Source: Prevotella sp. (GTDB taxonomy: Bacteria > Bacteroidota > Bacteroidia > Bacteroidales > Bacteroidaceae). From it: 32,902 bases of DNA. Positions within the stretch are counted from its first letter, which is position 1. Each line of letters begins with the position of its first letter. Of this stretch, positions 21,333-32,902 are shown piece after piece. The DNA is taken from contig JAFZAH010000046.1 of the NCBI GenBank assembly GCA_017548275.1, positions 1 to 32,902 on the forward strand. Reading direction: 5' to 3'. The notes under the pieces were generated by a model, which was not told where the DNA came from, searched no databases, and saw only the letters and a program-made list of their open reading frames with translations. The translations under genes were made by a program, and so were the position numbers.

Positions 21333-21761
21333 TTACTTCCCATTCTTCTCAGACTTATCGTCAGGCACATAGATGACATCACCCTCCAGACGATACTTAT
21401 CCACATCGACCGAGTCTGTCGGGGAAGCAACGGTAGAATCGCACATTGTAACCTTACCTCTTTCGATGTCCGGAGCGGGAATAATCCCCATCAAAGGGGA
21501 AGGACGTTTAGTAGCACAACCGGCAATAGCACCCACACCTATTGACAGTCCGGCAATAACCACTGCCTTGCCCACTTTACGGCGCAGGTTGAGTTGACGC
21601 TCCAGATAGCGCACCTCGGCCTCGCATGCAGGACAAGTGCCGGCGCACTCACCCTCGTGTGTACACTCACGCGGCTGATAATCTATCTCATTCGCTTCAG
21701 CGATGCTTTTACGCACCGATTTCAGTGCCTTACAAATTGCTTTACCTCTTGTCATAGTCAT
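21333..21761 (-). CDS. Cys-rich lipobox protein, paralogue 1
   Basis: I do not recognise a function. The frame is 142 residues from 21761; a second ATG at 21755 (140 residues) aligns exactly with the two paralogues at 30479 and 30972. Counting from 21755: a helical basic start (TRGKAICKALKSVRKSIAEANEI), a cluster Cys31-x5-Cys37-x3-Cys41-x2-Cys44 (ECTHEGECAGTCPACEAE), a basic stretch LRRKVGK, hydrophobic AVVIAGLSIGVGA, and the lipobox IAGC with Cys80. A hydrophilic acidic tail of 60 residues ends ...IYVPDDKSEKNGK. The Cys cluster could bind zinc or Fe-S. The second half looks like a lipoprotein signal. It has a promoter at 21780-21810. Confidence 0.8.
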   Translation of the reverse strand: MTMTRGKAICKALKSVRKSIAEANEIDYQPRECTHEGECAGTCPACEAEVRYLERQLNLRRKVGKAVVIAGLSIGVGAIAGCATKRPSPLMGIIPAPDIERGKVTMCDSTVASPTDSVDVDKYRLEGDVIYVPDDKSEKNGK

Positions 21762-30478: not shown

Positions 30479-30859
30479 TTACTTCTCTTTTACTACATTC
30501 ATGTCCACAGAGTCGGGCAAAGCCTCCACATCGCCTGCCAATTCCTCAATCGTGTCGTTTTTTGACACATTTGTTGTTCGGGGGTCTTTCTCCACCATGC
30601 CGCTCGGCTGGAAGAGATTGCAACTGGCCAATGTGCCCAGGCTCATCGACAGTCCGGCGATGACCACCGCCTTGCCTGCACGGCGACGCAGACTGATTTG
30701 CCGCTCCAGATAACGCATCTCGGCCTCACATGCCGGACAGGTACCGGCGCACTCGCCCTCATGATGGCACTCACGGGGTTCATATACAATCTCATTCGCC
30801 TCGGCGATACGCTTGCGCACCGATTTCAAGGCCTTACATATTGCTTTTCCTTTGGTCAT
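30479..30859 (-). CDS. Cys-rich lipobox protein, paralogue 2
   Basis: Function unknown. This 126-residue protein has the same 80-residue module as paralogues 1 and 3: MTKGKAICKALKSVRKRIAEAN, then ECHHEGECAGTCPACEAE (Cys31, 37, 41, 44), LRRRAGK, AVVIAGLSMSLG and the lipobox LASC (Cys80). The 46-residue tail is acidic (KNDTIEELAGDVEALPDSVDMNVVKEK). The DNA of the module is more than 90 percent identical by eye to paralogue 3, while the tails differ. A full-consensus promoter is at 30889-30919. GH95 begins 10 bases after its stop, so it is probably the first gene of that operon. It could be an anchored partner of secreted enzymes (speculation). Confidence 0.85.
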   Translation of the reverse strand: MTKGKAICKALKSVRKRIAEANEIVYEPRECHHEGECAGTCPACEAEMRYLERQISLRRRAGKAVVIAGLSMSLGTLASCNLFQPSGMVEKDPRTTNVSKNDTIEELAGDVEALPDSVDMNVVKEK

Positions 30860-30888
30860 AATCGTAACGGGTTAATATGATTGGTTGA

Positions 30889-30919
30889 CAAAGATAATTC
30901 ATTTTTGCGAAAACACAAA
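30889..30919 (-). promoter_or_regulatory. Promoter of Cys-rich paralogue 2 and GH95
   Basis: On the minus strand TTTG (30919-30916) and TATCTTTG (30896-30889) are 19 bases apart, a full match. The start codon is 30 bases downstream. Confidence 0.75.
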
Positions 30920-30971
30920 ATTATGACGCCTTCGTCACGCCTTTTTATGTTTTTTCCACAAAAAGGGACGA

Positions 30972-31529
30972 TTATTCTTTCTCAGGGCCTCCTTCCACTG
31001 AATCTGGCACATTAGACTCATTCGGCCTGACAGGCTTATCTTGCTCGTCTTTCACCTTACCCGTCGGTTCGTACGATACTTCTCCGACAGCAACTACTTC
31101 CAGAGCCCCAATGCCCATAACGGTGTCATCCTTGTCGGATGGCACCACCTTCACGTCGGATTTACCATCCTCACCTGCGGAATCAGGCACTTCCATCACG
31201 GCACCGGCCAACTCTGTCACCTTTAACGAATCGACTCGTGTCGTGTCAGTGCCGCTCTTCTCGTCAACAGTTGTGCGTTTCACCTGATGGCAAGCGGTCA
31301 GTGCGCCCAGACTCATCGACAGTCCGGCGATGACCACCGCCTTGCCCGCACAGCGACGCAGACTGATTTGCCGCTCCAGATAGCGCACCTCGGCCTCGCA
31401 AGCGGGACAGGTACCGGCGCACTCGCCCTCATGATGGCACTCACGGGGCTCATACACAATCTCATTCGCCTCGGCGATACGCCTACGCACCGCTTTCAAG
31501 GCCTTACATATCGCTTTACCTCTGGTCAT
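30972..31529 (-). CDS. Cys-rich lipobox protein, paralogue 3
   Basis: Function unknown. The start is taken as ATG 31529 (185 residues) because it aligns with paralogue 2; an ATG at 31556 adds nine residues and overlaps the -7 element. The module is as in the others, with Cys31, 37, 41, 44, an extra Cys60 (LRRCAGK) and lipobox LTAC with Cys80. The 105-residue tail is acidic and low in complexity, rich in Asp, Glu, Val and Pro. It contains LAGAVMEVPDS, similar to LAGDVEALPDS of paralogue 2. This tail is the longest of the three. The promoter at 31554-31585 is its own and lies 27 bases from the CRISPR array. Confidence 0.83.
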   Translation of the reverse strand: MTRGKAICKALKAVRRRIAEANEIVYEPRECHHEGECAGTCPACEAEVRYLERQISLRRCAGKAVVIAGLSMSLGALTACHQVKRTTVDEKSGTDTTRVDSLKVTELAGAVMEVPDSAGEDGKSDVKVVPSDKDDTVMGIGALEVVAVGEVSYEPTGKVKDEQDKPVRPNESNVPDSVEGGPEKE

Positions 31530-31612: not shown

Positions 31613-32902
31613 GTTGTTTACCAATGTTTTCCTACATCAAACCACAACTTTGTTATCTTGCTCGTTATTCGTGTCATCGTTGTTTACCAATGCTTTCCTA
31701 CATCAAACCACAACGCATCATCAAAGATATATGGAGTGCGGTTTGTTGTTTACCAATGCTTTCCTACATCAAACCACAACTCTCCGTATTTGCGTTCCAT
31801 CCGTTCAATGGTTGTTTACCAATGCTTTCCTACATCAAACCACAACTCAGTACGGCTCATATTTTGCCGTTCTCTCGTTGTTTACCAATGCTTTCCTACA
31901 TCAAACCACAACTGGTAAAGGTGTTACCGATTCTCCTAATAAGTTGTTTACCAATGCTTTCCTACATCAAACCACAACATGTACTCAATCGAGTACATTT
32001 GCTCTGCGTTGTTTACCAATGCTTTCCTACATCAAACCACAACTAACTGTATGATTTTGAATAATATTATATAGTTGTTTACCAATGCTTTCCTACATCA
32101 AACCACAACGATTATCTGCCTGGCTTTCTTTTTATTGTGTTGTTTACCAATGCTTTCCTACATCAAACCACAACGCGCTGTTTCTCGCCCTTAATTACAA
32201 CAAAGTTGTTTACCAATGCTTTCCTACATCAAACCACAACAGGCAGACGACACCATTGAGGATTACAACGTTGTTTACCAATGCTTTCCTACATCAAACC
32301 ACAACTCCACCGCTCAAACAGTGCCTTGTTGGGCGTTGTTTACCAATGCTTTCCTACATCAAACCACAACGCAAGAAGGAGAAAGTGGTCAACGGCACCG
32401 TTGTTTACCAATGCTTTCCTACATCAAACCACAACATAAGGATTTTTAATATTTTGAGGTCTGATGTTGTTTACCAATGCTTTCCTACATCAAACCACAA
32501 CTGACGGCCGATGTCGTTGGCGGTGAGGGTTGTTGTTTACCAATGCTTTCCTACATCAAACCACAACCCTGGTGCAGAACTGCCGCCAGCAGTATAGGTT
32601 GTTTACCAATGCTTTCCTACATCAAACCACAACTATGCGACCCATGCGTTAACGGCTTTCCTAGTTGTTTACCAATGCTTTCCTACATCAAACCACAACT
32701 GGCGATATAATATTATTTTGTTCTCTTAGTTGTTTACCAATGCTTTCCTACATCAAACCACAACTAACTATCGTTAGACAACAAATCGCCAACAGTTGTT
32801 TACCAATGCTTTCCTACATCAAACCACAACTTGCGAGTGCTTCGGGATAGGAGTTGACAGGTTGTTTACCAATGCTTTCCTACATCAAACCACAACTCAA
32901 GA
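31613..32902 (-). CRISPR. CRISPR array, 20 repeats visible, continues past the window
   Basis: Twenty 36-base repeats begin GTTGTTTACC and end AAACCACAAC on the plus strand, at 31613, 31679, 31745, 31811, 31877, 31943, 32008, 32074, 32139, 32205, 32270, 32335, 32400, 32466, 32532, 32598, 32664, 32729, 32795 and 32861. All 19 complete spacers are 29 or 30 bases and unique. Only the first repeat (31613-31648) differs, having T for C at position 15, which suggests that the left end is the old, leader-distal end and that the leader lies off the right edge. The reverse complement starts GTTGTGGTTTG. A 36-base repeat with 30-base spacers is usual for type II and type VI-B; no cas gene or tracrRNA is present to decide. 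Strand is inferred from the degenerate repeat. Confidence 0.97.

Follow-up and report, generated by a model that had tools for sequence, protein, structure and literature searches.

The 32,902-nucleotide contig of a Prevotella sp. that we studied in its whole length (the window; GenBank assembly GCA_017548275.1, contig JAFZAH010000046.1) carries three genes, P0001, P0002 and P0003, whose products begin with a cysteine-rich module of about 60 residues, followed by a hydrophobic segment, a lipobox and a tail (Table 1). Comparative genomics demonstrates, at the level of gene content and gene order, that this module is coupled to a radical S-adenosylmethionine (radical-SAM) enzyme resembling the activase of pyruvate formate-lyase (PFL), and our data suggest an undescribed protein-modification system rather than merely an odd lipoprotein signal. 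In the open-access literature of PubMed Central (PMC) that we searched, no description of this module-enzyme pairing was found.

Table 1. Module genes of the window and their features (positions in the window).
Gene	Feature	Position	Strand	Remark
P0001	Module protein, 126 residues; Cys module, hydrophobic segment, lipobox LASC, short acidic tail	30479..30859	-	
P0001	Cys module, residues 1-59	30683..30859	-	profile A1 match
P0001	Lipobox Cys80 codon	30620..30622	-	computed from residue 80
P0001	Glycine motif LAGDV, residues 107-111	30527..30541	-	
P0002	Module protein, 185 residues; lipobox LTAC	30972..31529	-	
P0002	Cys module	31353..31529	-	profile match
P0002	Lipobox Cys80 codon	31290..31292	-	computed
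P0002	Variant glycine motif LAGAV, residues 107-111	31197..31211	-	no strict match
P0002	Second variant VAVGEVSY, residues 146-153	31071..31094	-	no strict match
P0003	Module protein; lipobox IAGC; 142 residues (first ATG) or 140 (second ATG)	21333..21761	-	
P0003	Cys module	21579..21755	-	profile match
P0003	Lipobox Cys codon, residue 82 (80 from second ATG)	21516..21518	-	computed
P0003	Glycine motif LEGDV	21375..21389	-	

The likeness of the three 80-residue N-termini exceeds chance by far. An 81-residue query run against the window genome (a 3.22-Mb assembly, 87% complete, with three full module copies) returned the other two copies at E-values of 1.3e-44 and 3.4e-40; the sole further match (E = 0.04) contains two internal stops. 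An earlier note on this DNA had aligned C31, C37, C41 and C44 of the three proteins without gaps, and the residue positions bear this out when P0003 is read from its second ATG. Cysteines lie at residues 8, 31, 37, 41, 44 and 80 in P0001 and at 8, 31, 37, 41, 44, 60 and 80 in P0002; counted from its first ATG, P0003 has them at 10, 33, 39, 43, 46, 82 and 107, a numbering two ahead of that of the other proteins and identical to it from the second ATG. P0002 starts at the ATG at 31529, with a longer TTG open reading frame (ORF) from 31556. The stretch LRR.xGK, the segment AVVIAGLS and the three lipoboxes are all present as the note had described them, and domain, segment and lipobox follow each other in the order it gave. 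Its list of cysteines was correct as far as it went and overlooked C8; its tail lengths also hold (46 residues behind the lipobox Cys in P0001, 105 in P0002 and 60 in P0003), but the tails are less divergent than it had claimed, as those of P0001 and P0003 have a motif, L-x-G-[DE]-[VI], in common that recurs in relatives. About 60 residues precede the hydrophobic segment in all three proteins, in departure from the short n-region at the extreme N-terminus by which lipoproteins are recognised. Scans of P0001-P0003 against Pfam and NCBIfam gave no model above cut-off. An array resembling clustered regularly interspaced short palindromic repeats (CRISPR; 31613-32896, 20 copies of a 36-base repeat, one with a single mismatch) directly adjoins the P0001/P0002 gene pair and extends to the contig end.

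The cysteines of the module are all but invariant. C8, C31, C41 and C44 are kept in all 214 near-full modules among the 216 distinct ones (at most six gaps each; the most degenerate module, L226, falls below this threshold), C37 is missing only from three enzyme-fused copies that have a Cys at a neighbouring position instead, and Gly39 is kept in 213, the exception being the L227 module of the enzyme-free genome G733. The distribution of the module is patchy: with the window genome included in each count, it was found in 23 genomes among 100 relatives, in 51 of 399 genomes drawn from the family, in 15 of 393 from the order and in 2 of 395 from the phylum, both of the latter from the same family; these draws were aimed no further than the phylum. 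A scan of the named collection, confined to the best 80 of 540 relatives, gave 76 loci labelled Prevotella, Prevotellaceae or other Bacteroidales, including P. veroralis, P. multiformis and P. aurantiaca. Sequence searches of the PDB returned no module relative better than E = 0.26 (the weak LysW, ResA and anti-TRAP matches, E = 0.26-0.45, were not used), and iron-sulfur families matched the module only below cut-off (Fer4_7, E = 0.057; PFLE_PFLC, E = 0.02-0.04).

The lipobox is a frequent companion of the module and not a constant one. A pattern-based count over 211 distinct relatives, which excludes L152-L154 (analysed apart) as well as L087 and L155 (without the C-x5-C-x3-C-x2-C spacing), found the segment together with a lipobox-like Cys in 139, most often 36 residues past C44 (63 of the 139). 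In another 63 the segment is there but the pattern detected no lipobox Cys behind it; three of these entries look like lipoboxes that it missed. Nine have no strong segment, two of them being cut by the locus end. Many of the 63 have ends resembling A-x-A-Q; an A-x-[AS] site lies in the expected stretch of 44 of them, a modest excess over the shuffled mean of 34 and maximum of 43. The proteins that carry the module, which we call clients, are just as varied. Pfam found TonB_C in 68 and CarbopepD_reg_2 in 11 of 118 module proteins, and in one of them (L030) the CarbopepD_reg_2-type part matches SusC positions 3-86. Carriers without export segment comprise HIRAN proteins, one serpin and one ADP-ribosylglycohydrolase; proteins of 85 and 88 residues consist of the module only, and in some genomes it forms the C-terminus of an enzyme. 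Because the lipobox is optional and the carriers are this diverse, we regard the module as an independent domain. The earlier note had read the layout as a lipoprotein signal peptide behind a cytoplasmic domain, and the very homologues that it had named beforehand as refuting this view, those lacking the lipobox Cys, do occur; the export-free fusions lead away from it as well. The family that it described is real and its lipobox plausible, but what defines the family is that it is paired with the radical-SAM enzyme, whose likely target is a glycine motif that recurs in the clients. Neither the enzyme, whose gene lies outside the window, nor the recurrence of the motif was visible to the note. 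The cleavage by signal peptidase II that it envisaged, with a freed Cys-rich peptide as second product, is possible, judging from the layout of the three genes.

When the neighbours of the 76 named loci were clustered, a radical-SAM protein of about 205 residues appeared in 41 of them, and the next cluster in 10; one of the 41 enzymes, L085, is a 468-residue ORF. The radical-SAM gene mostly lies directly behind the module gene or genes, and the frames overlap in 21 of the 41 cases, 11 of these by the 4-base kind of overlap. In profile searches, which scored at most 16 candidates per genome and may thus have missed a module, the enzyme was present in 73 of 80 module-bearing and in none of 60 module-free genomes, the latter being a selection made up of 38 from the first set (by single-sequence search) and 22 listed by this search and by the profile searches. 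Taken separately, the genus set has the enzyme (>200 bits) in 20 of 22 genomes with the module versus 0 of 38 without (p = 5.5e-14), and the second set in 53 of 58 versus 0 of 22. The profile separates the family well, since its members score above 200 bits and other activases at most 99 bits, bar one partial match of 137 bits. The enzyme lies no more than 3 kb from a module in 68 of the 73 enzyme-bearing genomes, at least one module place per genome being counted and not every one, and is on the same strand in 66 of these 68. A genome may have several module proteins, yet it usually has one enzyme (five and one, respectively, in G044). Furthermore, the module is fused to the C-terminus of the enzyme in genus g22 and in G716 (g229).

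Some loci show further arrangements. In the window genome (L300, contig C23) and in G019 (L303), the radical-SAM gene stands behind SusC/SusD-looking genes, abutting the stop codon of the SusD-like gene in G019, and the short-tail clients are unlinked. At L218 (G042:C4, 1024-2730) a radical-SAM member forms the rear part of a fusion whose front region matches ADP-ribosylglycohydrolase below cut-off, and a HIRAN-module gene follows directly; at L220 (G617) and L221 (G809), radical-SAM members with an extra N-terminal region of about 120 residues lie beside HIRAN-module genes. Two families share the same four-gene order (L297, G533:C6, 6074-11784; L298, G1072:C11, 5060-10734): a protein of about 355 residues starting near ISASRSTDIPAFYADW, a protein of about 1250 residues (with sub-cut-off matches to leucine-rich-repeat adhesins and repeat proteins in L297), the radical-SAM enzyme, and a soluble module protein of 85 or 88 residues.

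The closest solved match of the enzyme is the PFL-activating enzyme PflA (3c8f; E = 2.3e-23). Pfam places Radical_SAM above cut-off and an overlapping Fer4_12 on it, with no further cluster domain and no SPASM. The CX3CX2C motif is present in 124 of 124 family members, GGGEP is also conserved, and of the residues aligned to PflA Asp16 and Asn38 (chain positions 16 and 38), 123 members share the first and all 124 the second; a modelling paper describes these two PflA residues as anchors of the target, Gly734 (PMC9326890). Six members reach 117-136 bits with the NCBIfam activase model TIGR02494, under its cut-off of 174.35. By eye, no glycyl radical enzyme was recognised in the 25 largest neighbour clusters of the 76 loci, and no family search for one was made.

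The tails of the clients carry the motif L-x-G-[DE]-[VI] far more often than expected. We counted it, with [LIVMF] allowed at the first place, in the 112 of 225 distinct tails that a 50% redundancy removal left, sorted into classes by our own patterns and not by Pfam. Of the 38 nonredundant short tails, 28 have the strict motif, whereas 300 shuffles gave 1.4 on average and never more than 5; with [DEN] at the fourth place the count is again 28, versus 1.6 after shuffling. Over all tails it occurs in 61 of 112 (8.1 shuffled, maximum 19; 200 shuffles), in the TonB class in 17 of 30 (3.1, maximum 9), in the HIRAN class in 4 of 5 (0.6, maximum 3) with one of the four, that of L224, inside the domain, and in the one serpin tail. 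Per 1000 residues, short tails contain 10.4 motifs and 482 module-free neighbour ORFs 0.28. Among the 65 sites that lie outside the TonB FPGG context, the motif mostly opens with L (73%), and D (69%) and V (73%) prevail at its fourth and fifth places, the remaining letters being set by the pattern itself. A second glycine motif, resembling G-[ML]-P-x-P-P, was seen in 4 of the 112 tails (0.1 shuffled); it occurs in HIRAN and some membrane clients, for instance in the linkers of L219, L229 and L230 beside the main motif, and P0003 contains the similar LMGIIPAP.

Related proteins with and without the module provide a control, whose counts, here and in the rest of this paragraph, are uncorrected for shared ancestry. 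For HIRAN clients we relied on the linker because of the in-domain match of L224, and the motif is present there in 8 of 9 enzyme-bearing versus 0 of 3 enzyme-free genomes (p = 0.018). At the TonB site, module-free relatives read, for example, VFDVVEQMPSFPGG, and module versions IFGDVVEQMPSFPGG or VFGDVAEQMPSFPGG; a glycine lies within nine residues upstream of xPxFx[GN]G in 53 of 64 module contexts versus 1 of 20 module-free ones. At the TonB-box-like site, a glycine before [DE]-[VI] is found in 11 of 11 module contexts versus 0 of 7 module-free contexts of the window genome, and with a looser pattern in 15 of 20 versus 1 of 16. Unrelated tails thus carry the same glycine. Near the start of a contig, directly before a second radical-SAM member, L301 (G042:C49, 71-505) holds a 144-residue TonB-like ORF that reads NIFGVVEEMPSFPGG, glycine included, and has no visible module; one may be cut off by the contig end.

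Where the module is fused to the enzyme or stands on a motif-free protein, we looked for the motif on a neighbouring gene, a search made once the motif had already been proposed as the target of the enzyme and with L302, L304 and L305 left out, where our own pattern found no enzyme. Three of six motif-free module-enzyme systems, all of them g22 fusions, have a small motif-bearing gene next door. Family f22 has the fusion in 6 of 9 genomes. The gene that comes next, 12-33 bases further downstream, codes in each of the six for a module-free peptide of 61-92 residues whose acidic and variable part contains L-[VI]-G-[DE]-[IL], with five strict matches. The motif and the module may thus lie on a single protein or on two, as one would expect if the module brings the motif and the enzyme together. 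Beside the enzyme, L297 and L298 have no motif partner except for in-domain matches, L299 has only a loose AYGGEIEEP, and the SusC/SusD-looking genes of L300 and L303 are without the motif.

Taken together, these comparisons lead us to propose, with a probability of roughly 0.6, that the module docks clients to the dedicated radical-SAM enzyme, and that the enzyme acts on the glycine of the motif as the PFL activase does on Gly734. The module, which may hold a metal, would serve as a portable, leader-like docking domain for a single enzyme of the PflA or glycyl-radical-enzyme-activase clade. The enzyme would bind it with the client still in the cytoplasm and would abstract a hydrogen, by PFL-activase chemistry, at the glycine of L-x-G-[DE]-[VI] further along the client. 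The tails of the window clients would then be exported as short lipoproteins by way of the hydrophobic segment and lipobox, with the module staying behind on the side of the cytoplasm. Other clients join the module to TonB C-terminal domains or to SusC N-terminal domains with a TonB box, and those without export segment join it to HIRAN, serpin or ADP-ribosylglycohydrolase domains.

Considerably more tentative is the wider idea of an activase-type enzyme that has been turned to marking many proteins of unrelated kinds, none of them glycyl radical enzymes, at a motif glycine, with a portable five-cysteine domain bringing the clients; the glycine would end up either with a new modification at its alpha-carbon or as a glycyl radical, at which oxygen can cut the protein. 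An oxygen-labile mark is conceivable because the glycyl radical of PFL is cut by oxygen and the small partner protein YfiD can carry one, as stated in a paper on this system (PMC8683613). In that variant, lipoproteins, TonB-like proteins and cytoplasmic regulators of anaerobes would break at the glycine on contact with oxygen. If the docking proposal holds, radical-SAM activases would not be limited to switching on metabolic enzymes, and one such activase would modify envelope and cytoplasmic proteins of Prevotella-like bacteria through a transplantable tag. An N-terminal domain without a Pfam or NCBIfam model above cut-off would thereby acquire a role, TonB-type envelope proteins would bear a new post-translational mark, and the small pair of docking domain and motif would lend itself to direct experimental tests.

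Several observations weigh against this proposal. Seven module genomes have no enzyme; two of them are incomplete (G036, G051), one has a fragment at a contig end (G836) and two have degenerate modules (G569, G733), which leaves G499 and G776 with intact modules and no enzyme. The window genome itself is one of the five enzyme-bearing genomes in which the enzyme is unlinked to modules: its 213-residue copy is encoded on contig C23 (G000:C23:118975-119583) beside SusC-/SusD-looking genes. The p-values given above are not independent tests, as the sequences are related. The enzyme is without a C-terminal part of the PFL activase, the alignment stopping at about PflA residue 191 and the family ending soon after. 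The strict motif is absent from 10 of the 38 short tails and 51 of the 112 nonredundant tails, P0002 has variants only, and neither the Reg class (5 of 12; 1.1 shuffled, maximum 5) nor the class of other tails (6 of 26; 2.1, maximum 6) exceeds the shuffled maximum. At the TonB site the full motif is found in merely 21 of 55 module contexts (0 of 16 module-free), and two module versions read VFDV, with the glycine absent. Among the six motif-free systems, L231, L232 and L235 have no or only a loose motif partner, and since the six f22 peptides are homologous, they amount to one evolutionary case.

One different explanation assigns the module an auxiliary role beside the enzyme, as an iron-sulfur or electron-transfer partner, with tails that merely localise it, so that it would not be a docking tag at all. 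The five invariant cysteines fit this, as do the fusion to the C-terminus of the enzyme and the lack, in Pfam, of a cluster domain beyond Radical_SAM and the overlapping Fer4_12; it leaves unexplained, however, why a genome has several different clients and why the glycine motif recurs, and the ferredoxin- and activase-like matches of the module are far below cut-off. We therefore hold it to be unlikely. Similarly doubtful is the view that it is the module which the enzyme modifies, at a Cys or Gly39 for instance, and that the motif plays another part, such as that of a TonB-box-like strand. The invariance of Gly39 and the cysteines speaks for it, the lone Gly39 exception lying in an enzyme-free genome; L232 and L235 have, beside the enzyme, minimal module proteins (85 and 88 residues) that are free of the motif, and in SusC-like tails motif and TonB-box site overlap. 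Against it, HIRAN and serpin clients without any export segment carry the motif too, and in f22 the motif stands on a peptide of its own, the module there having passed to the enzyme.

A lipoprotein with a Cys-rich cytoplasmic extension of its signal peptide, from which signal peptidase II frees two products with nothing else needed, would agree with the three window genes and with the 139 relatives that have a lipobox-like Cys after the segment. As a general account it is refuted by the relatives without a lipobox Cys or a strong segment, by the HIRAN, serpin and ADP-ribosylglycohydrolase fusions, and by the module at the C-terminus of an enzyme, and it leaves the co-occurrence of the enzyme unexplained; we consider it improbable. 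We give next to no credence to a membrane sensor or anti-sigma-like protein of the zinc-binding anti-sigma (ZAS) type, the topology of which is alike (an N-terminal cytoplasmic domain, one segment and a periplasmic tail) but whose signature, H-x3-C-x2-C, is absent from the module consensus, and we reject it as genes looking like sigma factors of the extracytoplasmic function type occur in merely 3 of the 76 loci, versus 41 for the radical-SAM gene.

Three further candidates were set aside. A serpin as general partner was rejected, the serpin-holding neighbour cluster (10 of 76 loci) being heterogeneous. A viral origin of the module is unsupported, the viral collection having yielded a single match that is cut by the locus end, and so is a reading as a defence system, given that P0001-P0003 match nothing in PADLOC. 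The viperin models of that collection match the radical-SAM enzymes weakly (E = 0.003 for the window-genome copy, 6e-6 for L220), and one HIRAN client matches PADLOC candidate models over its HIRAN part.

The proposed system can be compared with several known ones. With ribosomally synthesized and post-translationally modified peptides (RiPPs) made by radical-SAM enzymes, such as the sactipeptide ruminococcin C as it is presented in one report (PMC8188230), it would have in common a leader-like domain with a short core-like motif, small precursor-like genes beside the radical-SAM gene (the short-tail module genes and the f22 peptides), and a leader-like domain that can be fused to the enzyme. 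Unlike in these systems, the leader-like part is a five-cysteine domain, the clients are often full-size proteins, and the enzyme has no Pfam SPASM; by eye, no dedicated transporter or leader protease was recognised in the 25 largest neighbour clusters of the 76 loci, whose housekeeping-looking neighbours include an LptF/G-like permease in 5. Bufferins modified by multinuclear non-heme iron-dependent oxidative enzymes (MNIOs), as one account describes them (PMC12452194), are likewise bacterial peptides that are post-translationally modified by a dedicated enzyme, which belongs, however, to another class than the radical-SAM partner considered here.

The TonB_C and CarbopepD_reg_2 domains of many clients tie the family to the TonB proteins and SusC N-terminal domains of Bacteroidota, to which the module proteins add the N-terminal Cys module, a lipobox or an end like that of a signal peptidase I substrate and mostly also one more glycine ahead of the conserved strand. 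Also close is the trio of PflA, PFL and YfiD: the enzyme belongs to the same clade and keeps CX3CX2C, GGGEP and the two glycine-anchor residues, and YfiD offers the precedent of a small partner protein that can receive a glycyl radical, in the description given in one paper (PMC8683613). In contrast to PflA, the present enzyme scores below the NCBIfam activase cut-offs and its alignment ends early, and its partners, in place of PFL and YfiD, would be TonB, SusC-like, lipoprotein, HIRAN or serpin proteins that are marked by the Cys module.

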